DNA from: an uncultured Eubacteriales bacterium
GTDB lineage: Bacteria; Bacillota_A; Clostridia; Saccharofermentanales; Saccharofermentanaceae
Direction: 5' to 3'
Length of the DNA: 16,875 nucleotides
NCBI GenBank assembly: GCA_900313405.1
Contig: OMQY01000174.1
Coordinates: 1 to 16,875, forward strand
Both the position numbers and the translations under genes were made by a program. Under the pieces are notes generated by a model. That model was given only the letters and a program-made list of their open reading frames with translations, was not told the DNA's origin and ran no database searches. Shown piece by piece: positions 6,650-16,875 of the stretch. The first letter of the stretch is position 1, and each line of letters starts with the position of its first letter.

Positions 6650-6913
6650 AGTGAAGCTCCTATATCACATGAGGCAGATAAGCTGCCGGGACTACGAATC
6701 CCGAGGGATCCATTGCCGGATTATTACTGTATTCGGTCCTCATTGAGGAAGTCCTACTGTAGTACTGCCATTATATCGCTTAACCGACCTCAAGTCATTA
6801 ACGGAGCGTATCATCGGGGCAAAGATACCTTTAATTTCGCCAATTGTAGATTTATAATATAAGGGTGTCATTATCAACGGATATTGACTTATCAGACGCG
6901 GAACGGTGAGCTT
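6650..6913 (+). promoter_or_regulatory. Upstream regulatory region of the peptide cluster
   Basis: No convincing gene lies here. A consensus TATAAT at 6853-6858 with a partial -35 TTTAAT at 6830-6835 (17-bp spacing) is the likely promoter of the secretion operon. Start of transcription near 6865 would leave a leader of about 50 nt. Two compact dyads lie upstream: TCCTCA-T-TGAGGA at 6737-6749 and CTAC-T-GTAG at 6754-6762. These could be protein-binding sites, but neither matches an operator I know. Confidence 0.45.
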
Positions 6914-7468
6914 ATGAAGGACAAAGACAATAAGAAGAAGGGTGGCGAGGACAAGTCCCGTAACCCGGAGAAACTGAATGAATATATAAGGATAGGCGGT
7001 CCCGGAGGGTATATCCTCATCGCCTCATTGATCCTTGTCGTAGTTGCACTCATTATATGGGGTTTTGTAGGAAGGATCCCGGTTACGAAGAATCAGTACG
7101 GCGTAATACTGTCGGACGGACAGCAGTATAATCTCTGCCTGTCCTTTATGCCGGTAGACGAGAAGGCCGTTATGCTTCCCGAGGGAACGGAAGTTACCGT
7201 GAGAACAGGCGACGGATCGACCTTTGACGGTGAGGTCATTTATATGATGGCTACACCGCTGTCTTCCGATGAGATCAAGACAATGCTCGAAGAACAGGGT
7301 CAGGGACTTACGAGCGACTGGATGGCAAGTTACCTTATCGAAGAGGGAACATATTCCTTCGTAGTCATGATCGACGTAGAAGGTGACGTGAGTGAATATG
7401 CCGATCAGGTAGTCAGCCTTACCATCATCACGGATGAAGTAAAGCCGATCTCATTCCTGTTGAAGTAA
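6914..7468 (+). CDS. Short HlyD-like NHLM-system secretion protein
   Basis: This 184-residue protein resembles the N-terminal part of the membrane-fusion (HlyD-like) proteins that accompany NHLM peptide exporters. It has a charged cytoplasmic start (MKDKDNKKKGG), then PEKLNEYIRIGGPGGYILI leading into one membrane helix (about residues 33-51) and WGFVGRIPV. This corresponds to the 'SPEQLDxLLQVTSPxGWLxL...WGFFGRIPT' opening remembered from the family. The rest is beta-rich (TEVTVRTGDG, FDGEVIYM, TYSFVVMIDVEGD). Full members run to about 400 residues with a long coiled-coil hairpin; here no coiled coil is visible and the protein is less than half that size. It is probably a membrane partner of the two ABC proteins. 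I chose the ATG at 6914 (GGTGAG upstream) over a TTG at 6884. The next gene starts 12 nt after the stop. Confidence 0.78.
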   Translation: MKDKDNKKKGGEDKSRNPEKLNEYIRIGGPGGYILIASLILVVVALIIWGFVGRIPVTKNQYGVILSDGQQYNLCLSFMPVDEKAVMLPEGTEVTVRTGDGSTFDGEVIYMMATPLSSDEIKTMLEEQGQGLTSDWMASYLIEEGTYSFVVMIDVEGDVSEYADQVVSLTIITDEVKPISFLLK

Positions 7469-7480
7469 GCGGAGGACGAT

Positions 7481-9643
7481 ATGGCAACAAGCAAGAAACC
7501 TGTTAAAGTGCCTGTTATCCTCCAGATGGAAGCGCTGGAGTGCGGTGCTGCATCTCTGGCGATGATACTGGCATATTACGGCAAATGGGTCCCGCTCGAG
7601 GATGTCCGTTCCGAGTGCGGTGTTTCCCGTGACGGAAGTAATGCCCTGAATATAGCCAAGGCGGCAAAGAAATACGGACTGGAATACAAGGCATATCGAT
7701 ACAGTGTAAAGAGTCTCCGTGAGAAGGCAACTTTCCCGGCGATCATCTTCTGGAATTACAACCACTTTGTAGTACTTAACGGTTTCCGCGGAAAGTACGC
7801 ATATATCAACGATCCGGCAGAGGGACGCACGAGGCTCACGATAGAGGAGTTCACCAGATGCTATTCCGGCATATGTCTTACGTTCACAACAGGCGAGGGG
7901 TTTGTCAAGGACGGTAAAAAGGCCAGTTCATTCGACTTCCTGCGTAAGGGTCTTAAGGGTAATGTCAAGACTATGATCCTGGTAATGCTGGCAGGTGCAG
8001 TGGCGATGTTTGCCGGTACGATGATACCCATTGTCTCGCGAGTCTTCACGGACTACATACTTCCGGGCAACAGGCCTAACTGGTATAAGGGATTTATCAT
8101 ATTCTTTGCATCAGTGATCGTCTTCCAGCTCATCGCATCGATAATCAATCTGTACTTTGTAAAGAAAGCGACCGGCAAACTGGCGGTCACGGCGAGTGCC
8201 AACTTTATGAATCACGTTTTCAGGATGCCGATGGAGTTTTTCTCTCAGCGTTTCGCAGGAGACCTGGCGCAGCGTGCCACGTCGAATGACCAGATAGCCG
8301 CCACGATGATCGGACGCCTGGCACCGGTCTTTATGAACCTGGTACTGCTGGTATTCTATCTGGTCGTAATGATCGAATACAGCGTCAAGCTCACCATAGT
8401 GGGACTTATCACGGTCGCCCTTAATCTGAGCCTGGCTAAGCTCATATCGAGTAAGCGTACACTGATCTCCAAGACACAGATCCGAGATCAGGGCAAGCTC
8501 GCAGCTGCAACCGTATCGGGAATCGATATGGTCGAGACGATCAAGGCTTCGGGTGCCGAGAACGGCTTTATGGAGAGGTGGTCAGGCTTCCACGCATCCA
8601 TGGTCAAGGCCAAAGTAAGATTTGACGGAGTCAACCGCTTCCTCGGAACGTTGCCGTCGCTCATGAATCAGCTGTCGACGATAATCATCATGATGATGGC
8701 ATTCTGGAGCATCATGGAGGGACATTTTACCGCAGGTATGTTCCTGGCTTTCCAGGCATGCATGACCTCGTTCATGAATCCTGTCAACGATCTTATCAAT
8801 GCAGGTCAGAGTATTCAGGAAATGAGTTCTCAGATAGAGCGTATCCACGACGTAATGGAATATCCCGAAGATCAGAATGCCAAGGAGGATTATGATCCCG
8901 AGGTGCTGAAGGATGCTCAGAAGCTGTCCGGAACGATAGAGATGAGAAATGTCACTTTCGGTTATTCAAGACTCGGGGAACCCGTTATCAAGAACTTCAA
9001 TCTTACGGTAACACCCCGTAAGAGGATCGCATTCGTCGGAAGTTCCGGATGCGGCAAGTCTACCATCGCCAAACTCCTTACGGGTCTTTATAAGCCGTGG
9101 AGCGGAGAGATCCTCTTTGACGGCAAGCCCATCTCTGAGATACCCAAGCCCATCTTTAACGGCTCTCTTGCCATGGTCGATCAGGAGATAGTTCTTTTCC
9201 GTGACACCATCGCCAATAACATCAGACTGTGGGATGAGACGATACAGGACTTCGATATGATACTCGCGGCCAGAGACGTCGATATCCACGAGGACATTAT
9301 GTCGAGGAAGGGCGGTTATTATCACATGCTCGAAGAGAACGGACACGACCTGTCCGGCGGTCAGAGACAGAGGATAGAGATCGCCCGAGTCCTGGCGGGA
9401 GACCCTTCCATCATCATCATGGATGAGGCGACCTCTGCTCTTGATGCACAGACAGAGCAGGATATCTCCAACTACGTTCACGATCGCGGAATAACCAGTC
9501 TTATAATCGCTCATCGTCTCTCGACGATAAGGGATTGTGACGAGATCATAGTTATAGACAAGGGCGAAGTAGTACAGAGAGGAACACATAAGGAACTGAT
9601 CAAGGAAGGCGGCATCTACAAGGATCTGGTGTCCACACAGTAA
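7481..9643 (+). CDS. NHLM-type ABC exporter with C39 leader peptidase
   Basis: This 720-residue protein contains all three parts of a peptidase-containing peptide exporter. The C39 peptidase (residues 1 to about 135) has Cys21 in MEALECGAASLAMIL, His95 in NHFVVLNG and Asp111 in INDPAEG, so the catalytic triad is complete. A membrane domain covers about 160-430. The ATPase follows with Walker A GSSGCGKST (520-528), signature LSGGQ (624-628), Walker B IIIMDEA and the H-loop His678. The family cuts leaders after a Gly-Gly and pumps the core across the membrane, which fits the VAGG or VSGG ending of all five downstream precursors. GGAGG at 7472-7476 supports the start. Four bases separate it from the second ABC gene, suggesting coupled translation and a heteromeric exporter. 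Confidence 0.93.
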   Translation: MATSKKPVKVPVILQMEALECGAASLAMILAYYGKWVPLEDVRSECGVSRDGSNALNIAKAAKKYGLEYKAYRYSVKSLREKATFPAIIFWNYNHFVVLNGFRGKYAYINDPAEGRTRLTIEEFTRCYSGICLTFTTGEGFVKDGKKASSFDFLRKGLKGNVKTMILVMLAGAVAMFAGTMIPIVSRVFTDYILPGNRPNWYKGFIIFFASVIVFQLIASIINLYFVKKATGKLAVTASANFMNHVFRMPMEFFSQRFAGDLAQRATSNDQIAATMIGRLAPVFMNLVLLVFYLVVMIEYSVKLTIVGLITVALNLSLAKLISSKRTLISKTQIRDQGKLAAATVSGIDMVETIKASGAENGFMERWSGFHASMVKAKVRFDGVNRFLGTLPSLMNQLSTIIIMMMAFWSIMEGHFTAGMFLAFQACMTSFMNPVNDLINAGQSIQEMSSQIERIHDVMEYPEDQNAKEDYDPEVLKDAQKLSGTIEMRNVTFGYSRLGEPVIKNFNLTVTPRKRIAFVGSSGCGKSTIAKLLTGLYKPWSGEILFDGKPISEIPKPIFNGSLAMVDQEIVLFRDTIANNIRLWDETIQDFDMILAARDVDIHEDIMSRKGGYYHMLEENGHDLSGGQRQRIEIARVLAGDPSIIIMDEATSALDAQTEQDISNYVHDRGITSLIIAHRLSTIRDCDEIIVIDKGEVVQRGTHKELIKEGGIYKDLVSTQ

Positions 9644-9647
9644 AGAT

Positions 9648-11846
9648 ATGAGTATATTCGGTAAACAGTTACAGAAAAGGATCGAGAACGACAACACTGC
9701 CGTAGCCAATAATCTTAAGAGGCTCGGTGATTCGGTGAGCGGCAGATCGGAGATCCTCTACAATGAATCACGATTCACAAAGAACAGGATCCGACAGATA
9801 GCGATAATCTGTCGTGAGCTGAAGCTCCCGTTGCCTGATGTTATCAGAGAGAGTAAGAACTTAAGTGAGCAGATAGACTTTATACTCCAGCCGTCAGGTG
9901 CCACTAAGAGACTCGTAGAGTTAAATGATATATGGTGGAAGAACAGTGACGGACCGTTGCTCGCAACATTTGCCGATACTGACGAAGAGATCGCGCTTCT
10001 GCCTAACAGGTTCAGGGGATATTATTACTTCGATCCCGAGACCGGTGAGAAGATCCGGATCACGAAGAAGAACAAGGACCTTTTCGATAAGGAAGCATTC
10101 TGTTTCTACCGACCTCTTCCCGGTGTATCCATGACCGGCAAAGACTACATATGGTTCCTGCTTAAGCAGATCAAGGTCTCCGATGTATTGCTGACCGTCA
10201 TGGCTTCGATATTTATCGCGGTATTCGGTCTCCTGACTCCTTTCGCGACAAAATATGCCTTCACGCATGCCATGCCCACCGGCGAAAAGATGCTCCTTGT
10301 ATCCCTCGGAGTCCTTCTCGTGTCAGCGGCCGTAGGATCGTGGATGATGAGTGTCGTTAAGATGTCGGCCAATTCCAGGATCAGTAACAGACTGGATACT
10401 ATAAGTGAGAATGCCGTTTATTCAAGAGTCATCAGACTTCCGGCATCATTCTTCGGCGATAAGAGCGCGGGCGGACTTGCAAACCGTGTAATGGCTCTTA
10501 ATACTCTGCCTGTACTTCTGACGGAGATATTATTCGGTACGCTCATCACGGTTCTCGTATCATCGGTATATATCTTCCAGCTGATCACTATCTCCCACAA
10601 GCTCGTATTCCCGGTATTCGTCATCTACCTGGTAGAGATACTGGTATTTGTCGTAACGGTCATGCAGGAACGTAAACTCATATCCAAGAGGATGGACGGA
10701 GAGGAGAAGAACAGCGGTCTGGTATTTGCTCTGCTGTCAGGCATTCAGAAGATAAAGGCATCCGGCAGTGAAGACCGCGCTTTTGCAAAATGGATGGAGA
10801 CATACTCGGAGAGAACAAAGCCGGCATATCGACTTCCTTTCCCTTCAGGTGTACGTGTTCCTCTCGTTACCGCGATCCATATGCTCGGCTTACTCTGGAT
10901 ATATGTCATTGCGTATAACAATTCTCTGTCGGTATCACAGTTTGCATCGTTCTCGAGCGCTTTCGGAATGATGATGGCCGGGATCAATTCCCTCGGAGGA
11001 GCGGGCATGTCGGTCTCCATGATCGAGCCTGTCCTTAAGATGGGTGAACCGATCCTTAAGGAAGTTCCCGAGACTACCGAAGGCAAGAAGACTGTCAGGG
11101 CATTAACCGGAAGGATCGAATTGAACGGAGTCGAATTCCGTTATACTGACGACGGACCGAATATCCTCGACGGTATCAGCCTTAAGATCAACGCAGGTGA
11201 TTATGTCGCTATCGTAGGTAAGTCCGGATGCGGCAAATCAACTCTCATGCGCCTTCTTCTCGGATTTGAAGAGCCGCAGAAAGGAACCGTCTGTTATGAC
11301 GATGACGACCTCGAGAGTCTTGATAAGCATTCACTGAGAAGGAATATCGGAACGGTTCTTCAGAACGGTAAGCTTTTCACCGGTGATATCTATTCCAACA
11401 TCACCATTACTGCTCCGTGGATGGATATGGACGATGCATGGGAAGCAGCAGAGAAGGCCGGTATGGCGAATGACATAAGACAGATGCCGATGGGAATGCA
11501 TACTCTCATTTCCGAAGGCGGAGGAGGTATCTCCGGCGGACAGAAACAGAGACTCCTTATTGCCCGTGCGATCTGTCCCAAACCGAACGTGCTTATGCTC
11601 GACGAAGCGACAAGTGCGCTCGATAACCTGACCCAGAAGATCGTTACCGATTCTATGAACGAGATGAAGTGCACCAGGATCGTGATCGCTCACAGACTGT
11701 CGACCATCAAGGAATGCAACAGGATCCTGGTCCTCGATCACGGTAAGATCGCAGAAGAAGGTACATTTGATGAACTTATGGCGAAGAACGGTATATTTAC
11801 CGAACTTGCCAAGAGACAGATAGTAGAAGAAGACGAAGAGGAATGA
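9648..11846 (+). CDS. NHLM-type second ABC transporter (permease-ATPase)
   Basis: The 732-residue protein has no C39 peptidase. Its first 165 residues instead form the N-terminal domain found in the second ABC protein of NHLM systems, with the recognisable blocks IWWKNSDGPLLATFAD (95-110), EIALLPNRFRGYYYFDPETG and FCFYRPLPG (151-159). A membrane domain follows (about 175-460), then the ATPase: Walker A GKSGCGKST (524-532), signature ISGGQ (628-632), Walker B VLMLDEA (648-654) and H-loop His682. It most likely pairs with the upstream ABC protein to form the exporter. There is no strong ribosome binding site in the 4-nt gap, so translation is probably coupled to the upstream gene. The acidic C terminus (EEDEEE) contains the GAAGAGGAA that serves the next gene. 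Confidence 0.9.
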   Translation: MSIFGKQLQKRIENDNTAVANNLKRLGDSVSGRSEILYNESRFTKNRIRQIAIICRELKLPLPDVIRESKNLSEQIDFILQPSGATKRLVELNDIWWKNSDGPLLATFADTDEEIALLPNRFRGYYYFDPETGEKIRITKKNKDLFDKEAFCFYRPLPGVSMTGKDYIWFLLKQIKVSDVLLTVMASIFIAVFGLLTPFATKYAFTHAMPTGEKMLLVSLGVLLVSAAVGSWMMSVVKMSANSRISNRLDTISENAVYSRVIRLPASFFGDKSAGGLANRVMALNTLPVLLTEILFGTLITVLVSSVYIFQLITISHKLVFPVFVIYLVEILVFVVTVMQERKLISKRMDGEEKNSGLVFALLSGIQKIKASGSEDRAFAKWMETYSERTKPAYRLPFPSGVRVPLVTAIHMLGLLWIYVIAYNNSLSVSQFASFSSAFGMMMAGINSLGGAGMSVSMIEPVLKMGEPILKEVPETTEGKKTVRALTGRIELNGVEFRYTDDGPNILDGISLKINAGDYVAIVGKSGCGKSTLMRLLLGFEEPQKGTVCYDDDDLESLDKHSLRRNIGTVLQNGKLFTGDIYSNITITAPWMDMDDAWEAAEKAGMANDIRQMPMGMHTLISEGGGGISGGQKQRLLIARAICPKPNVLMLDEATSALDNLTQKIVTDSMNEMKCTRIVIAHRLSTIKECNRILVLDHGKIAEEGTFDELMAKNGIFTELAKRQIVEEDEEE

Positions 11847-11853
11847 CAGTATC

Positions 11854-14553
11854 ATGAGATTATTACCGCCCGAGATCGCAGAAAGCCTTAATAAGAGCAA
11901 ATGTCTTGATTTTATTTATGAGAGTGCGGGCAAGGCATTGGATCAGATCAGAGAAAACGTTCCTCGGGCGGCAGGACTCCTTACGGAAGAAGCCGAGAAA
12001 TGCCTTACGGACAATTTCTATGAGAGATATGAGCTTATATACGCTCAGTGTCTGATGAAGGAGATCCGGACAAGGCTGGAGAGGTATGACCCTGTCGGAC
12101 TGATGTTGGGACGTTTTGATCCTGAATCGGTGAGCAAGTCGGCGAATGATCTGTACGAGTCCTGTGGCGGTAATATCGGCACTTATCTTCACGACAGATT
12201 CCCTCTTCTTGACGGATACAGAGATCACATATATCAGAATTATGTTGATTGCTTTACGGATTTCCTCAAGGCTTTTATTGATCGTAAAGATGAGGTATCC
12301 GCTTCATTCCTTGACGGGAAGCCTATTACCCGGATCCTCCATCTGTCTACCGGAGGAGCCGATATACACAGAAACGGAAGATGCGTAGTGGGCGTAAAGA
12401 CAGATGTCGGAACGGTCTACTATAAGCCTCACGACTGCGGCGTAGACGTTCTTTATCACGAGATAGTCGAGAAATGGTTCTCCGACTGTACCGTGGCCGC
12501 AGGCGTGATCGAGGGCGAAGGATATGCTTTTGTGTCATGTCTCAAGCATGAGAAGGTGGATTCCGAGACCGATATCAGGCTTTTCTTCCGTAACTTCGGC
12601 ATACTGGCTGCGCTTTTCCACGGGCTCGGAAGCAACGATATGCACCTCGAGAACATCATATCCTGCGGCACAAGACCTGCTGCAGTAGATGTCGAGACCA
12701 TACTCGGTACGGCTGTCCGTGCCGACAGCAAGGATATCGGTTCGATCCAGCGTGAACAGATGGATTTCAGAGATTCTCTGATGAGGACATGCCTGCTTCC
12801 CATGCGTATCTATAAAGGTCCCATGATGTCGCCGCTCTACTGTGCGAGCAAGGATGCCATGTGTCTTCCGGAATATGGTGACAAGGCATATACGGTCGAA
12901 GGGTATGAGGATGCGTTTAAGGACGGATTCCATGAAGGTTACGGTCGTATGCTCGAGCACAGAGATGAGATCGTAGAGATAATCGATGCTCATAAGGATG
13001 CCACCGTCAGATGCCTGATGCGCAATACCAGGTTCTACGCTCATATCCGAATGATGCTCTACCGTCCGGAATATCTGACGGAAGAAACGAAGCAGACTGT
13101 CTATGATAAGCTATGCACTCCCTATAAGATGTCGGGAGAAGAGATCGACCGCGACCAGACTGACTATGAATGGAACTGTATGCTCAAGTGCGATATCCCT
13201 TATTACTGTACAACGGTAGGCGGGGTCGATCTGTGCGGCGAAGAGAAGGAACAGACGGTAAAGAGCGGATTCTACATGACCAGTGTCAGGGATTCGGCCG
13301 TAAGATATCTGGATCGACTGTCTGTAGAAGAGGAGAGATTCGAACAGGATCTTCTCAGGATATCCTTTGCTCATGCTCCTACGGATGAGCCCAAGCAGAA
13401 GGAGCAGGAAGAGATCGGTCAGGACACGGTCGAAGGGACAAAGCTTCGGGGCGAGGTCAAGGCCATTCTTGACGGCATTTATGATGATGCGGTCATCGGG
13501 ACTGACGGCAATAAGTTCTGGATGAGTACGGCACTCATAACAGACGTGACGCCTACATGCGGCGATTCTGCTCAACTTGCCGATATCGGTATATTCTGCG
13601 CAGACATATTAGCGTCCGGGATCCTCGAAGGTGACGATAAAGATGCAAGAGAACTTGCCGATGAGATGTTTATTAAGCTAAGCGATTCGATTACGAAGCT
13701 GATCGAAAAGAAGAACGAGATCAGAGAGAATAATGCTCTATTTCCCATCGGGCTCTACACGGGACTCGGAGGAGTTCTTAACTCATTTGTCCACATGGAT
13801 AAGATCGGGATCGAAGGTGCCCGTCAGGCAGCGGAAAACATAACGGAGATCATCCTCGATACCGGGATGTTTAACTACAAGAAGACCGGTGTGGCAGACG
13901 GTGTGGCAGGTCTTGTCCTTGCTCTGACCGGGGCTCCGGATTCTGACAGCGCCCGCGAATGTATCCGCAGATGTGCGGACAGACTGCTCAAGGAAGAACT
14001 TCCTTCAAGCTCTGATCTGCCCTATGGCAGTGCGGGTATCGGAGCAGCACTCGCAGGGGCATTTAACATTGTTAAAGAGCCCGGATATGCGCGCTTTGCG
14101 GTCGAGGTATTCGGTAAGATCAAGGATGACTATTCCGAGAAGCTCGGCGGATGGCCGGACGGTAAAGCGAAGATCAAATGGATGGCTGATAAGGGACCTC
14201 ATGCTGCAGGGATCTATCTTGCGGCTTCATATGCCTCAGAGATCCTGCAGGGAGAGGACGGGGCTGAGGTTATCGGTGAGGTTGCCGAACTCGCACTGAA
14301 GAGTATGAGAGACGAGAAGAGACTCTATCGTCAGGATATATTAGACCAGGGTAATGCCATGACTGTTATGGCTTTTCTGAAGGCAGGTGACAGGCAGGCC
14401 GCGGGACGTATCCTCGCTTCAATGATCGGACGTAAAGACAGCAAGGGTGTGTTCACGGTAACACCGTCCGGAGTAAGGAGCGCTTTTGATCCTTCATTCT
14501 ACTACGGAACGGTCGGTGTGGGAGCCGCTATGATACGTTATTACGAGCAATAG
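11854..14553 (+). CDS. lanM: Class II lanthipeptide synthetase LanM with degenerate cyclase domain
   Basis: The 899-residue protein is a two-domain LanM. The dehydratase half (about 90-510) keeps the lipid-kinase-like active site: GGADIHRNG with Asp170 and His172, YYKPH with Lys191 (family usually YKPR), GSNDMHLEN with Asp262, His264 and Asn267, and AVDVET with Asp279 and Glu281, then DIPYY at 447. It should phosphorylate and eliminate Ser/Thr to dehydro residues. The C-terminal half (about 530-899) still shows LanC-like repeats (GLYTGLGG, VADGVAGLVLAL, YGSAGIGAAL). However, the first Zn-Cys region (family 'WCxGxPG') reads KWMADKGPHAAG, the CHG motif reads DQG (831-833), and the conserved HG is YG (724-725). 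No Cys occurs after 707. It is therefore probably a dehydratase with a dead or altered cyclase. The start follows the ABC gene by 7 nt. Confidence 0.9.
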   Translation: MRLLPPEIAESLNKSKCLDFIYESAGKALDQIRENVPRAAGLLTEEAEKCLTDNFYERYELIYAQCLMKEIRTRLERYDPVGLMLGRFDPESVSKSANDLYESCGGNIGTYLHDRFPLLDGYRDHIYQNYVDCFTDFLKAFIDRKDEVSASFLDGKPITRILHLSTGGADIHRNGRCVVGVKTDVGTVYYKPHDCGVDVLYHEIVEKWFSDCTVAAGVIEGEGYAFVSCLKHEKVDSETDIRLFFRNFGILAALFHGLGSNDMHLENIISCGTRPAAVDVETILGTAVRADSKDIGSIQREQMDFRDSLMRTCLLPMRIYKGPMMSPLYCASKDAMCLPEYGDKAYTVEGYEDAFKDGFHEGYGRMLEHRDEIVEIIDAHKDATVRCLMRNTRFYAHIRMMLYRPEYLTEETKQTVYDKLCTPYKMSGEEIDRDQTDYEWNCMLKCDIPYYCTTVGGVDLCGEEKEQTVKSGFYMTSVRDSAVRYLDRLSVEEERFEQDLLRISFAHAPTDEPKQKEQEEIGQDTVEGTKLRGEVKAILDGIYDDAVIGTDGNKFWMSTALITDVTPTCGDSAQLADIGIFCADILASGILEGDDKDARELADEMFIKLSDSITKLIEKKNEIRENNALFPIGLYTGLGGVLNSFVHMDKIGIEGARQAAENITEIILDTGMFNYKKTGVADGVAGLVLALTGAPDSDSARECIRRCADRLLKEELPSSSDLPYGSAGIGAALAGAFNIVKEPGYARFAVEVFGKIKDDYSEKLGGWPDGKAKIKWMADKGPHAAGIYLAASYASEILQGEDGAEVIGEVAELALKSMRDEKRLYRQDILDQGNAMTVMAFLKAGDRQAAGRILASMIGRKDSKGVFTVTPSGVRSAFDPSFYYGTVGVGAAMIRYYEQ

Positions 14554-14646: not shown

Positions 14647-14982
14647 ATGAAGACGGCAAAAGAATTTTTTGAGAGATTACAGAGTGATGAGGCATTCGCA
14701 CAGAAGGTGAATGAATCTATTCAGGCAAGGCGTGAAGCCGGAGCCCGGAATTACTACGAGACATTCATCCCTGTTGCCGCCGAGAACGGATATGAGCTGA
14801 CGAAGGAAGAGTTGGATTCAGTAATTGAAGCCGTGAGATCGGAAGTATCTGAGGAAGAACTCGGTAAGGTAGCCGGAGGGACCAGTTGTATCGGGGCATT
14901 AATATCTATGGCTATTACGATTACTTCCATGGTTACGGCCACACTCACCGCGTATACGCTCAAAGAGACGCTTGGACAATAG
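14647..14982 (+). CDS. Nif11-like leader precursor peptide 1 (TSC core)
   Basis: This is a 111-residue precursor: a leader of exactly 78 residues and a 33-residue core. The leader is helical and charged, starting MKTAKEFFERLQSDEAF, with IPVAAENGYELTKEEL in the middle and ending EVSEEELGKVAGG. This resembles Nif11-type leaders but carries extra residues (about 25-40) before the 'AAENGY' block. The core begins TSCIGALIS, has a single Cys (core position 3) and 11 Ser/Thr, is strongly hydrophobic, and ends in a polar tail (KETLGQ). The C39 peptidase of the exporter would cut after Gly78, and LanM is the likely modifying enzyme. The site upstream is an unusual run of six G (14634-14639), seven bases before the ATG. 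Confidence 0.9.
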   Translation: MKTAKEFFERLQSDEAFAQKVNESIQARREAGARNYYETFIPVAAENGYELTKEELDSVIEAVRSEVSEEELGKVAGGTSCIGALISMAITITSMVTATLTAYTLKETLGQ

Positions 14983-15001
14983 ATTAAGGAGTTCGATAGT
15001 T

Positions 15002-15325
15002 GTGAAGAGTGCCGAATTGTTTATTGAAAGGCTTAGAAACGATGGGTCTTTTTCCAATGCTGTGGGGCAAGTGGTTCATAGGGAGCGCGAGGCGGGAGTC
15101 TCTGATTATCGCGAGGCCATAATTACTTCTGCAGCTGAGTTTGGATATGAGATTAACAAGGAAGAGCTGGATGATATCTATTCCCGCCAGATGACAGAGC
15201 TGTCTGAGGAAGAGCTCGGGAAGGTATCAGGTGGGACCAGTTGTCTCTCGATATTGATCTCATTTTCAGTGGCAACCAGTTTTAGTGCTTTGACATATAG
15301 TATTCATACTCTAGCAGATGATTGA
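15002..15325 (+). CDS. Nif11-like leader precursor peptide 2 (GTG start, TSC core)
   Basis: The frame is open upstream to a TTG at 14972, but that lies inside precursor 1. The GTG at 15002 follows AAGGAG (14986-14991) and gives MKSAELFIER, aligning with the other precursors without a gap. The product is 107 residues: a 78-residue leader ending SEEELGKVSGG (the only one with Ser in place of Ala) and a 29-residue core starting TSCLSILIS. The core has one Cys at position 3, 11 Ser/Thr, aromatic residues in the middle and an acidic end (ADD). The leader is the most divergent of the upstream four in its central part (HREREAGVSDYREAI). It starts 19 nt after precursor 1. Confidence 0.88.
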   Translation: MKSAELFIERLRNDGSFSNAVGQVVHREREAGVSDYREAIITSAAEFGYEINKEELDDIYSRQMTELSEEELGKVSGGTSCLSILISFSVATSFSALTYSIHTLADD

Positions 15326-15343: not shown

Positions 15344-15667
15344 ATGAAATCATCAAACGATTTTTTCCAGAGATTGAAGACAGATGAGGCATTCGCAAAA
15401 GATGTCGCGGATGCTATTCAGAAGAGACGTGAGGAAGGTGCGACCAACTATTACGAGACCTTCATTCCCGTTGCCGAAGAACGCGGATACGAGATAACCA
15501 AGGAAGAGCTGGATGCACTCTATGAAGCTCAGACGGCTGAGATGAGCGAGGAAGAGTTGGGCAAGGTTGCAGGCGGTGCAAGTTGCTTCGTCGTAGTTAC
15601 CTTCATTACAGTAATCAGTGTGTCCGCATCTGTTATTGTGTCGTTGAATGAGTTGTCAATTGCATAA
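15344..15667 (+). CDS. Nif11-like leader precursor peptide 3 (ASC core)
   Basis: A 107-residue precursor: a 78-residue leader (MKSSNDFFQRLKTDEAFAKD at the start, EMSEEELGKVAGG at the end) and a 29-residue core. The core starts ASCFVVVTF and is the most beta-branched of the set, with Val, Ile, Ser and Thr making up most of it. It has one Cys at position 3, 8 Ser/Thr and no basic residue. The first core residue is Ala rather than Thr. A strong GGAGGAAAG site lies in the 18-nt gap upstream. Leader conservation with precursor 1 is high, especially over NYYETFIPVAEERGYE. Confidence 0.9.
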   Translation: MKSSNDFFQRLKTDEAFAKDVADAIQKRREEGATNYYETFIPVAEERGYEITKEELDALYEAQTAEMSEEELGKVAGGASCFVVVTFITVISVSASVIVSLNELSIA

Positions 15668-15689: not shown

Positions 15690-16010
15690 GTGAAGACGAC
15701 AAAAGAGTTTATTGAGAGGCTTGGGAATGATAAGGATTTTCTGAACAAGATTGTTGCCAAAGTGAATGAGAATCCTGATTCCGAGCATGGTGACTACAAG
15801 AAGATCATAATTCCGATCGCATTGGAAGAAGGATATGACTTGAAAGAGGATGAATTAGATTCCTTATATGAGGCACAGGTAGCTGAGATGAGCGAAGAAG
15901 AGCTGGGCAAGGTTGCAGGAGGTACAACACCATTGTTCGTTTTGGTCAGTTCTATTCTTTCTATTGGAAGCGTTGCGCTAACAGTCACTCCACATATTCT
16001 GGAACAATAG
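15690..16010 (+). CDS. Nif11-like leader precursor peptide 4 (no Cys in core)
   Basis: A 106-residue precursor with a GTG start after TTTGGAGGTGG. The 78-residue leader (MKTTKEFIERLGNDKDF to EMSEEELGKVAGG) differs in the middle, where ENPDSEHGDYKKII replaces the RREAGA segment of its relatives. The 28-residue core starts TTPLFVLVS and contains no Cys at all; Pro stands where the others have Cys. It has 8 Ser/Thr and a long hydrophobic run ending in PHILEQ. No lanthionine can form inside this peptide, so its final form must rest on dehydration, another modification, or pairing with a partner peptide. Confidence 0.88.
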   Translation: MKTTKEFIERLGNDKDFLNKIVAKVNENPDSEHGDYKKIIIPIALEEGYDLKEDELDSLYEAQVAEMSEEELGKVAGGTTPLFVLVSSILSIGSVALTVTPHILEQ

Positions 16011-16072: not shown

Positions 16073-16411
16073 ATGAAGACGGCAAAAGAATTTTTTGACA
16101 AGATGAGGAATGATCAGGACTTCGCAGTGAAGATTTGCGATGAACTGATAACAAAAAGAGATGCGGGAGCAAAGGATTACTATGAGACAATAATCCCGAC
16201 GGCCGCTGAGAACGGGTACGAAGTAACTCGGGCAGATATAGATGATATTCTATCTGTTTCCGGAGAGGAAATGAGTGAAGAAGAACTTGGAAAGGTTGCA
16301 GGAGGAACATCCTGCATAGCAGCGACTGCTGCACTTATTATATCTTCAGTCATATCTGTAGCGATATCTCTTCCTGTTGTTACTATCACTGTAAAAGAAA
16401 CGAGATCTTGA
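16073..16411 (+). CDS. Nif11-like leader precursor peptide 5 (TSC core)
   Basis: A 112-residue precursor: a 78-residue leader (MKTAKEFFDKMRNDQDF to EMSEEELGKVAGG, with a Cys at leader position 22) and the longest core, 34 residues, starting TSCIAATAAL. The core has one Cys at position 3, 11 Ser/Thr, a hydrophobic stretch rich in Ile and Ser, and a charged end (VKETRS). Its first 26 bases are identical to those of precursor 1, although the genes are 1.4 kb apart. AGGAG lies just upstream in a 62-nt gap that is longer than those between the other precursors. The radical SAM gene follows 40 nt after its stop. Confidence 0.9.
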   Translation: MKTAKEFFDKMRNDQDFAVKICDELITKRDAGAKDYYETIIPTAAENGYEVTRADIDDILSVSGEEMSEEELGKVAGGTSCIAATAALIISSVISVAISLPVVTITVKETRS

Positions 16412-16451
16412 TACTATTAGTACAATAGGATTGAGAGCAGCTCATCTAAGT

Positions 16452-16875
16452 ATGGAAGAAAAAAGGTCATTAAGAGAGAATCCGGAGGGATTATTCGGGA
16501 TACAGTGGCATATAACCGATAACTGTGATCAGCGGTGCAGCCATTGCTATATTTTCGCTGAGGATAATCACAAGCCTCTTGTAAGTATGGACTTCGATCA
16601 GATGAATGAGGTCCTCGATAAAGTGGAGGCATTTACGTCTAAGCTCGACATGCGTCCCAACTTTGCCATAACGGGCGGTGATCCTATACTGAATCCCGAT
16701 TTCTGGAAGCTTGCCGAACTGCTGAAGAGCAGGGGGCACAAGTTCGCGATAATGGGCAATCCTTTCCATCTGACGCCGGATATATTGGCAAGGCTTAAGG
16801 AATGCGGGTGTATAGCATACCAGCTTTCCGTCGACGGAATGGAAGAGACACATGATAAGATCCGGAGACCCGGAA
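16452..16875 (+). CDS. Radical SAM peptide-modifying enzyme, N-terminal part (runs off the window)
   Basis: The frame from ATG 16452 stays open to the window end, giving 141 residues of a longer protein. After MEEKRSLRENPEGLFGIQWH it carries the [4Fe-4S] motif CDQRCSHCY (Cys25, Cys29, Cys32, spacing CX3CX2C), the SAM-binding glycine block ITGGDP (73-78), AIMGNPFHLTPD, and QLSVDGMEETHDKIRRPG, the usual fourth-strand motif of SPASM-type radical SAM enzymes. The style recalls peptide maturases of the ACGX or CXXX-repeat type, from memory only; the C-terminal domain that would settle this is outside the window. It follows precursor 5 by 40 nt with no terminator, so it is probably co-transcribed with the precursors. 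No strong ribosome binding site is seen; a TTG at 16431 is a weaker alternative start. Confidence 0.88.
   Translation, partial: MEEKRSLRENPEGLFGIQWHITDNCDQRCSHCYIFAEDNHKPLVSMDFDQMNEVLDKVEAFTSKLDMRPNFAITGGDPILNPDFWKLAELLKSRGHKFAIMGNPFHLTPDILARLKECGCIAYQLSVDGMEETHDKIRRPG

Follow-up and report, generated by a model that had tools for sequence, protein, structure and literature searches.

The 16,875-nucleotide contig OMQY01000174.1 of an uncultured Eubacteriales bacterium (assembly GCA_900313405.1), the whole of which is called the window below, encodes a LanM-type synthetase whose cyclase barrel has lost all of its zinc ligands. The protein belongs to what seems to be a new branch of zinc-less LanMs in gut Clostridia, derived from enzymes with a Cys-Cys-Cys (CCC) zinc triad and found with Nif11-type leaders and Cys-poor cores. 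We read the enzyme, with better than even confidence, as a dehydratase with a retired cyclase that would yield thioether-poor peptides containing dehydro- or D-amino acids. Published work is cited by PubMed Central (PMC) identifier. The parts of the gene are as follows.

11854..14553, + strand, LanM-type synthetase, 899 residues (DUF4135, TIGR03897, predicted model)
11854..13401, + strand, dehydratase (lipid-kinase-like) part, residues 1-516 (CylM alignment)
13402..14553, + strand, LanC-type alpha/alpha barrel without zinc ligands, residues 517-899 (fold model and alignment)
13888..13890, + strand, G679, catalytic Asp position (NisC Asp141; alignment)
14023..14025, + strand, Y724, catalytic His position (NisC His212; alignment)
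14194..14196, + strand, G781, first zinc Cys position (alignment)
14344..14349, + strand, D831-Q832, positions of the second Cys and of the His or third Cys (alignment)

Active sites of the window LanM and its branch

The dehydratase half scores well above threshold against DUF4135 (190.5 bits, cut-off 29). When residues are numbered against CylM through an alignment, with roles taken from PMC4550811, all nine residues required for phosphorylation and elimination are kept (D170, H172, K191, D262, H264, N267, D279, R386 and T392). Across 37 branch proteins found by database search, six of the nine are invariant and three are nearly so (at least 90%). We infer that the window LanM is a working Ser/Thr dehydratase, as the original prediction for this gene had it.

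The original prediction concerned the C-terminal residues 530-899 (13441-14553). The barrel expected of a LanM is present by predicted fold: a full-length model with a predicted local distance difference test score of 91.4 retains an intact LanC-type barrel. By sequence, the protein stays below both curated cut-offs, LANC_like (19.7 bits, cut-off 23.2) and TIGR03897 (283.9 bits, cut-off 304). The zinc positions are occupied by G781, D831 and Q832, and neither a Cys-Cys-His (CCH) nor a CCC triad is present. The counterparts of NisC Asp141 and His212 are G679 and Y724. Alignment and a confident predicted fold therefore bear out the claim of a conserved barrel stripped of its zinc ligands. A replacement site built from Cys or His residues elsewhere, which the original prediction had named as a possible refutation, was considered and rejected, as sequence conservation offered no well-conserved candidate.

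The branch set comprises 49 rows. The 37 database-search proteins (31-100% identity) come from a search that scored only the 7994 candidates sharing the most words and ran on overall similarity, not on motif. The other 12 are full-length LanMs in ten loci (L001-L010). Nine of these loci come from records titled as metagenome-assembled genomes, several of them sampled from rumen or gut, and the tenth belongs to Lachnospiraceae bacterium C6A11. Cys is missing from all three zinc positions in every one of the 49 rows. His occurs twice at 831 and twice at 832, where the other residues are Q (19), E (14), N (7), D (4) and R (3). With ligand loss in every row and a single group in the trees of both domains, the separate branch that had been proposed is well founded.

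The 48 full-length LanMs from all loci divide into these 12 and 36 outside the branch, the latter reached by profile searches into neighboring families. Two of the 36 are cut before the site (L084_3815, L090_13150). Among the 34 that reach it, 29 are intact (8 CCC, 21 CCH) and five are degenerate (L074, L078, L080_1532, L082 and L102); the uniform ligands of the two intact groups are partly by construction, because these seven LanMs were set aside before grouping. Partial LanMs in L011-L013 were placed in no group, and two control LanMs (L135, L136) that at first appeared to lack a ligand turned out to be intact when their sequences were read. An unselected sample of 391 clostridial genomes contained 12 with PF13575. 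Counting full-length proteins, with seven matches below 780 residues left out, 11 of 12 LanMs outside G001 were intact; the twelfth, L132, has a single Cys left and adds a sixth degenerate LanM to the five above, of which L074 also retains one triad Cys. The unselected counts indicate that the zinc-less state is uncommon but not unique. The suggestion that it is rare among LanMs thus holds for this sample, and is tempered by zinc-free LanM-type proteins already in print: CcaM/LanMbC (PMC10676384), 'D-Unk' (PMC11251773) and CA_C0082 (PMC10301443).

Several loci outside the main pattern were also recorded. In the L102 LanM (7909-11025), TLNNGN replaces the CHG motif, and no match to a flavin mononucleotide (FMN) reductase lies within its 20 kb. 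L080 carries one CCC and one zinc-less LanM in the same locus, with an FMN-reductase match near each, two YcaO matches and 11 precursor rows, all Cys-free. L001 (13248-15338), L002 (15935-17890) and L006 (15349-17304), which resemble the window in gene order, encode a second, shorter LanM-like protein of 651-696 residues with DUF4135 motifs and a partial barrel; the window stops before its expected site. Barrel-less LanM-like frames of 588 and 533 residues occur on one Olsenella contig, in L011 (3824-5590; Pfam match to DUF4135 only) and L012 (9629-11230), each overlapped by an FMN-reductase frame, and the Nif11-type cores nearby have three Cys and few Ser/Thr. A plasmid search returned distant LanMs only, none with 80% coverage in one place at >60% identity, and a first genome scan found no relative.

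Descent and evolution of the barrel

Trees were built from 29 of the 49 branch rows, all eight CCC and 10 of the 21 CCH LanMs. With the dehydratase only (413 columns, 50 rows), the zinc-less rows form one group (support 77/75), as they also do in a quick version of that tree. They are joined by L074 (99/96), then by the CCC proteins of L071 and L072 (99/89), and then by the other clostridial CCC group (100/100). In the barrel tree, from which five active-site columns were removed, the zinc-less rows group at 100/100 and take in L074 at 97/91; six CCC rows lie next to them (80/95), and two class III barrels fall outside. Both trees suggest that the barrel most likely came down from a CCC (ProcM-type) LanM and that its active site was lost in place. 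A barrel grafted from class III was rejected on the barrel tree; that tree holds two class III rows only, and the program flagged long branches that meet at this point. Searching genomes for class III proteins gave noisy results, with 296 of 299 genomes matched and one over the cut-off.

Judged by sequence divergence, the branch barrel is evolving faster, yet under purifying selection. The median ratio of barrel to dehydratase distance is 1.43 among zinc-less LanMs (1170 pairs), 0.85 among CCC (11 pairs) and 1.05 among CCH (72 pairs), for pairs with a dehydratase p-distance of 0.15-0.72 and a barrel distance <0.85. The ratio of nonsynonymous to synonymous substitution rates (dN/dS) in the sole close branch pair, L002-L006, is 0.42 for the barrel and 0.26 for the dehydratase; one CCC pair gave 0.26 and 0.21. 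D828, F878 and D879 are found in all 49 branch rows, and the last two are variable in CCC and CCH LanMs. A fast barrel with dN/dS below one and invariant F878 and D879 fits a barrel freed from cyclization and kept for another role.

Precursors and partner genes

Five precursor genes follow the LanM, and two exporters precede it.

14647..14982, + strand, precursor 1, Nif11-type leader, GG and core TSCIGALISMAITITSMVTATLTAYTLKETLGQ (TIGR03798 39.7 bits, cut-off 32.3)
15002..15325, + strand, precursor 2, core TSCLSILISFSVATSFSALTYSIHTLADD (TIGR03798 30.6 bits, slightly below the cut-off of 32.3)
15344..15667, + strand, precursor 3, core ASCFVVVTFITVISVSASVIVSLNELSIA (TIGR03798 34.8 bits)
15690..16010, + strand, precursor 4, Cys-free core TTPLFVLVSSILSIGSVALTVTPHILEQ (TIGR03798 34.1 bits)
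16073..16411, + strand, precursor 5, core TSCIAATAALIISSVISVAISLPVVTITVKETRS (TIGR03798 35.7 bits)
16431..16875, + strand, radical S-adenosylmethionine (SAM) gene of the TIGR04340 (ACGX system) type, truncated where the window stops (TIGR04340 188.8 bits, 148 residues)
7481..9643, + strand, export ATP-binding cassette (ABC) transporter with C39 leader peptidase, NHLM ABC1 (TIGR03796 919 bits, cut-off 853.3)
9648..11846, + strand, second export ABC transporter, NHLM ABC2 (TIGR03797 701.5 bits, slightly below the cut-off of 709.4)
6884..7468, + strand, short HlyD-like membrane protein, 194 residues (TIGR03794 partial match, 28.8 bits)

Four of the five precursors pass the Nif11 leader cut-off, the exception being precursor 2, and GG is present in all five. 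The mechanical start of precursor 2 is a TTG at 14972; starting at the GTG at 15002 gives a better fit to the leader family. The TTG reading (14972-15325) overlaps the end of precursor 1, and the GTG is preceded by AGGAG. Cores in the window are hydrophobic and contain 8-11 Ser/Thr each; their Cys counts in precursors 1-5 are 1, 1, 1, 0 and 1. In four of them the Cys is at core position 3, and in none does a Ser/Thr stand two or more residues ahead of it. This arrangement is ill-suited to the ordinary direction of ring formation.

The same poverty in Cys holds across the branch loci, where cores have turned hydrophobic and Ser/Thr-rich. Counting 38 Nif11-type cores, the window included, 25 have no Cys, 11 have one, one has two and one has three. 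At most one Cys is therefore found in 36 of 38, versus 3 of 20 cores in seven CCC loci (two without Cys, one with one, 17 with two to four). All 11 cores in L007 and all six in L010 are Cys-free. A single Cys is mostly kept in the window, L001 and L002 (9/11), and the L001 cores show a TxxC pattern (TTPVC, STPIC) that places Ser/Thr ahead of Cys. These totals come from the leader-model count; a separate count of Ser/Thr before Cys splits some precursors at a later GG. The 38 and 20 rows were drawn from 79, with 21 left out of both counts (L011 1, L012 2, L074 1, L078 3, L080 11, L081 3). The 20 include two spurious-looking Cys-free rows (L071 at 2865, L075 at 14031), and among the 38 are one misplaced split (L010 at 11420, Cys-free all the same) and a three-Cys peptide (L009 at 1246) that may belong to another system. 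The leader model found no precursors in L003-L006; an earlier model gave one Cys-free candidate in L003, which is uncounted. L007 (6505-10491) has eleven consecutive Nif11-type precursors with Cys-free cores, behind YcaO, zinc-less LanM, FMN-reductase and radical SAM/SPASM genes.

An FMN-reductase (PF03358) accompanies the LanM in nine of ten branch loci, the tenth being a 4.6-kb contig. In seven loci its frame abuts or overlaps a LanM; in L001 it lies 1.1 kb off and in L008 3.6 kb off. Seven are Pfam-confirmed; those of L004 and L006 rest on a custom hidden Markov model only. With mechanically chosen starts, the frame overlaps the LanM stop in L002, L003, L004, L006, L007 and L010. The gene was beside no LanM in 20 Lachnospiraceae control loci, which at first made it look like a marker of zinc loss (9/10 versus 0/20); that idea was dropped, as the gene also stands beside intact LanMs in the unselected sample. 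Among the eight CCC loci it adjoins the LanM in L080, gives a weak match 4.4 kb off in L075 and is absent from six. The best solved relative of the L002 reductase is SP1951 of S. pneumoniae (1sqs), which we take to adjoin a lantibiotic locus. YcaO is present in six and a methyltransferase in four of the ten loci, with Pfam support for all except the L004 methyltransferase; neither L001, L002 nor L006 has a YcaO, and none was found in the window, truncated as it is at its end.

Other neighbors can be described briefly. A complete homologue of the window radical SAM protein in L002 scores 434.7 bits against TIGR04340, above the cut-off of 400. Another radical SAM protein, encoded in L010 (12942-13967) within a cluster that has a zinc-less LanM and two YcaO genes, matches the YydG peptide epimerase model at 127.9 bits (cut-off 300). 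The HlyD-like protein matches only positions 4-61 of the 421-position model and has short homologues in L001, L002, L006, L009 and L010. Further upstream in the window, the genes that match a Pfam family are unremarkable (L,D-transpeptidase, GNAT-nitroreductase fusion, Na:alanine symporter and beta-lactamase-family protein), and two small frames have no Pfam match.

Proposed function of the barrel and relation to known systems

We propose that the N-terminal kinase-like domain, given its intact residues, would phosphorylate core Ser/Thr of a Nif11-led peptide and eliminate the phosphate to give dehydroalanine (Dha) and dehydrobutyrine (Dhb). With the zinc triad and both acid-base residues lost, the CCC-derived barrel would no longer perform zinc-dependent thiol addition, and by analogy with CcaM it may be retained as a scaffold, either to hold the substrate or to support the dehydratase. 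In CcaM a zinc-less barrel is needed for dehydration, and no ring or lanthionine was seen in the product (PMC10676384). Flavin reductases of the LanJB family convert Dha and Dhb to D-Ala and D-aminobutyrate (D-Abu) (PMC7268733, PMC11519912), and across the branch a neighboring FMN-reductase of this type most likely does the same, so that products would be thioether-poor and rich in D-amino acids. The lone Cys at core position 3 might be used by the adjacent radical SAM enzyme rather than by the LanM. We judge it likely that the window LanM forms no thioethers, because both acid-base residues are lost, the evolution of the barrel is relaxed and the substrates are Cys-poor.

Several observations weigh against this picture. 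One Cys is retained in four of five window cores, and no FMN-reductase lies within the window, which ends inside the radical SAM gene. In the unselected sample, 7 of 16 PF13575 clostridial loci have an FMN-reductase, and in six of the seven the LanM is an intact CCH enzyme (two of these six are near-identical copies in one genome); the reductase is therefore permissive evidence only. L080 pairs an intact CCC LanM with Cys-free cores only, so the match between ligands and cysteine is not strict. Because the branch is a single evolutionary event, co-occurrence within it counts about once. Class III cyclases function without zinc (PMC10604976), and some branch members have an aromatic-acid pair (YD in L010, YE in L002) like the Phe-Asp of ThurKC.

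The last two points raise the possibility of a metal-independent cyclase resembling class III LanKC, in which an acid/aromatic pair replaces zinc and the barrel guides one thioether, be it lanthionine, labionin or a ring from Cys to a downstream Dha. ThurKC has Ser/Phe/Asp in place of the ligands and still cyclizes, and dehydration without cyclization is reported for its F770A and D771A variants (PMC10604976). In the branch, polar residues persist at 832, every row has D828, F878 and D879, and most cores of the window, L001 and L002 keep one Cys. However, the branch barrel does not group with the two class III rows, only 9 of the 49 rows carry Phe/Tyr at position 831, and 25 of 38 cores, including all of those in L007 and L010, offer no thiol. 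The window Cys also lacks an upstream Ser/Thr at a suitable distance, although L001 has one. We therefore regard such a cyclase as rather unlikely. The invariance of F878 and D879, together with the reductase frames that overlap the LanM stop in six loci, would suit a barrel repurposed for another dehydro-residue step, such as docking of the FMN reductase or addition of a non-thiol nucleophile; its faster evolution compared with the barrels of zinc-bearing groups makes this improbable in our view. A decaying LanM, either a functionless remnant or a regulator as proposed for CA_C0082, whose homologues lack both the zinc motif and the dehydratase residues (PMC10301443), is hardly credible. We rejected it, as the frame is full-length with all nine dehydration residues, barrel dN/dS is below one in the sole pair tested, and five precursors and dedicated exporters stand in line with the gene. 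A dehydratase with a retired cyclase remains our favored reading.

Among the closest known systems is CcaM/LanMbC of the dehydrazoles (PMC10676384), likewise a DUF4135 dehydratase fused to a zinc-less barrel. The YcaO partners recall the six branch loci with YcaO, and products with dehydro residues and no lanthionine are what we propose, by analogy, for the branch. However, the CcaM barrel is described as class III-type and the branch barrel appears CCC-derived (in a tree with two class III rows and no CcaM sequence). CcaM leaders are NHLP, not Nif11-type; its cores are rich in Ser, Thr and Cys and first made into azoles, unlike the Cys-poor cores of the branch and window; and its hosts are mostly Proteobacteria and Actinobacteria, not Clostridia. 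ProcM-type (CCC, 'type IIa') enzymes are the closest zinc-bearing relatives in both domain trees and share Nif11-type leaders with GG, but have the Cys-Cys-Cys triad and Cys-rich cores in seven of eight CCC loci. 'D-Unk' shares DUF4135 with an undefined zinc triad (47 predicted peptides counted), but is a bookkeeping class in complete genomes, for which the available text describes no clade, mechanism or Nif11/Clostridia group (PMC11251773). CA_C0082 is LanM-like, clostridial and without a zinc motif; it differs in length (670-728 residues), in having lost the dehydratase residues too and in its Agr linkage (PMC10301443). Class III LanKC/ThurKC has a LanC fold without zinc, but separate kinase and lyase domains, demonstrated cyclization (PMC10604976) and barrels on another branch (two rows). 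Systems with LanM and LanJB, such as bicereucin, would share dehydration by LanM with a later flavin-dependent reduction to D-Ala/D-Abu (PMC11519912, PMC7268733). They are lanthipeptides, unlike the thioether-poor products proposed here. Bicereucin is reportedly made by a zinc-bearing LanM. In the portions of the open-licence PMC literature available to us, we found no description of a zinc-less, Nif11-led, CCC-derived LanM branch.

The branch outlines a path by which a bifunctional enzyme loses one activity, from CCC relatives through a one-Cys intermediate (L074) to a large zinc-less branch whose substrates lose cysteine alongside the ligands. It also provides a natural test of what LanC barrels do beyond cyclization. 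Much of it would escape standard mining: the rule 'LANC_like and DUF4135' (PMC13289728) misses the window LanM because of its low LANC_like score, a precomputed LANC_like domain is absent from 24 of the 37 database-search proteins, and the pipeline of PMC7268733 drops candidates with a Cys-free core. A more tentative possibility is that the branch LanM and the LanJB-type reductase form a cysteine-free converter of Ser/Thr to D-Ala/D-Abu. The LanM would dehydrate many positions in the hydrophobic Nif11-led cores, the reductase would saturate these with inversion of configuration, and the barrel, with its new F878-D879 pair, would be the platform joining both steps. If so, it would make linear membrane peptides rich in D-residues, a group of ribosomally synthesized and post-translationally modified peptides (RiPPs) missed by mining that requires Cys.

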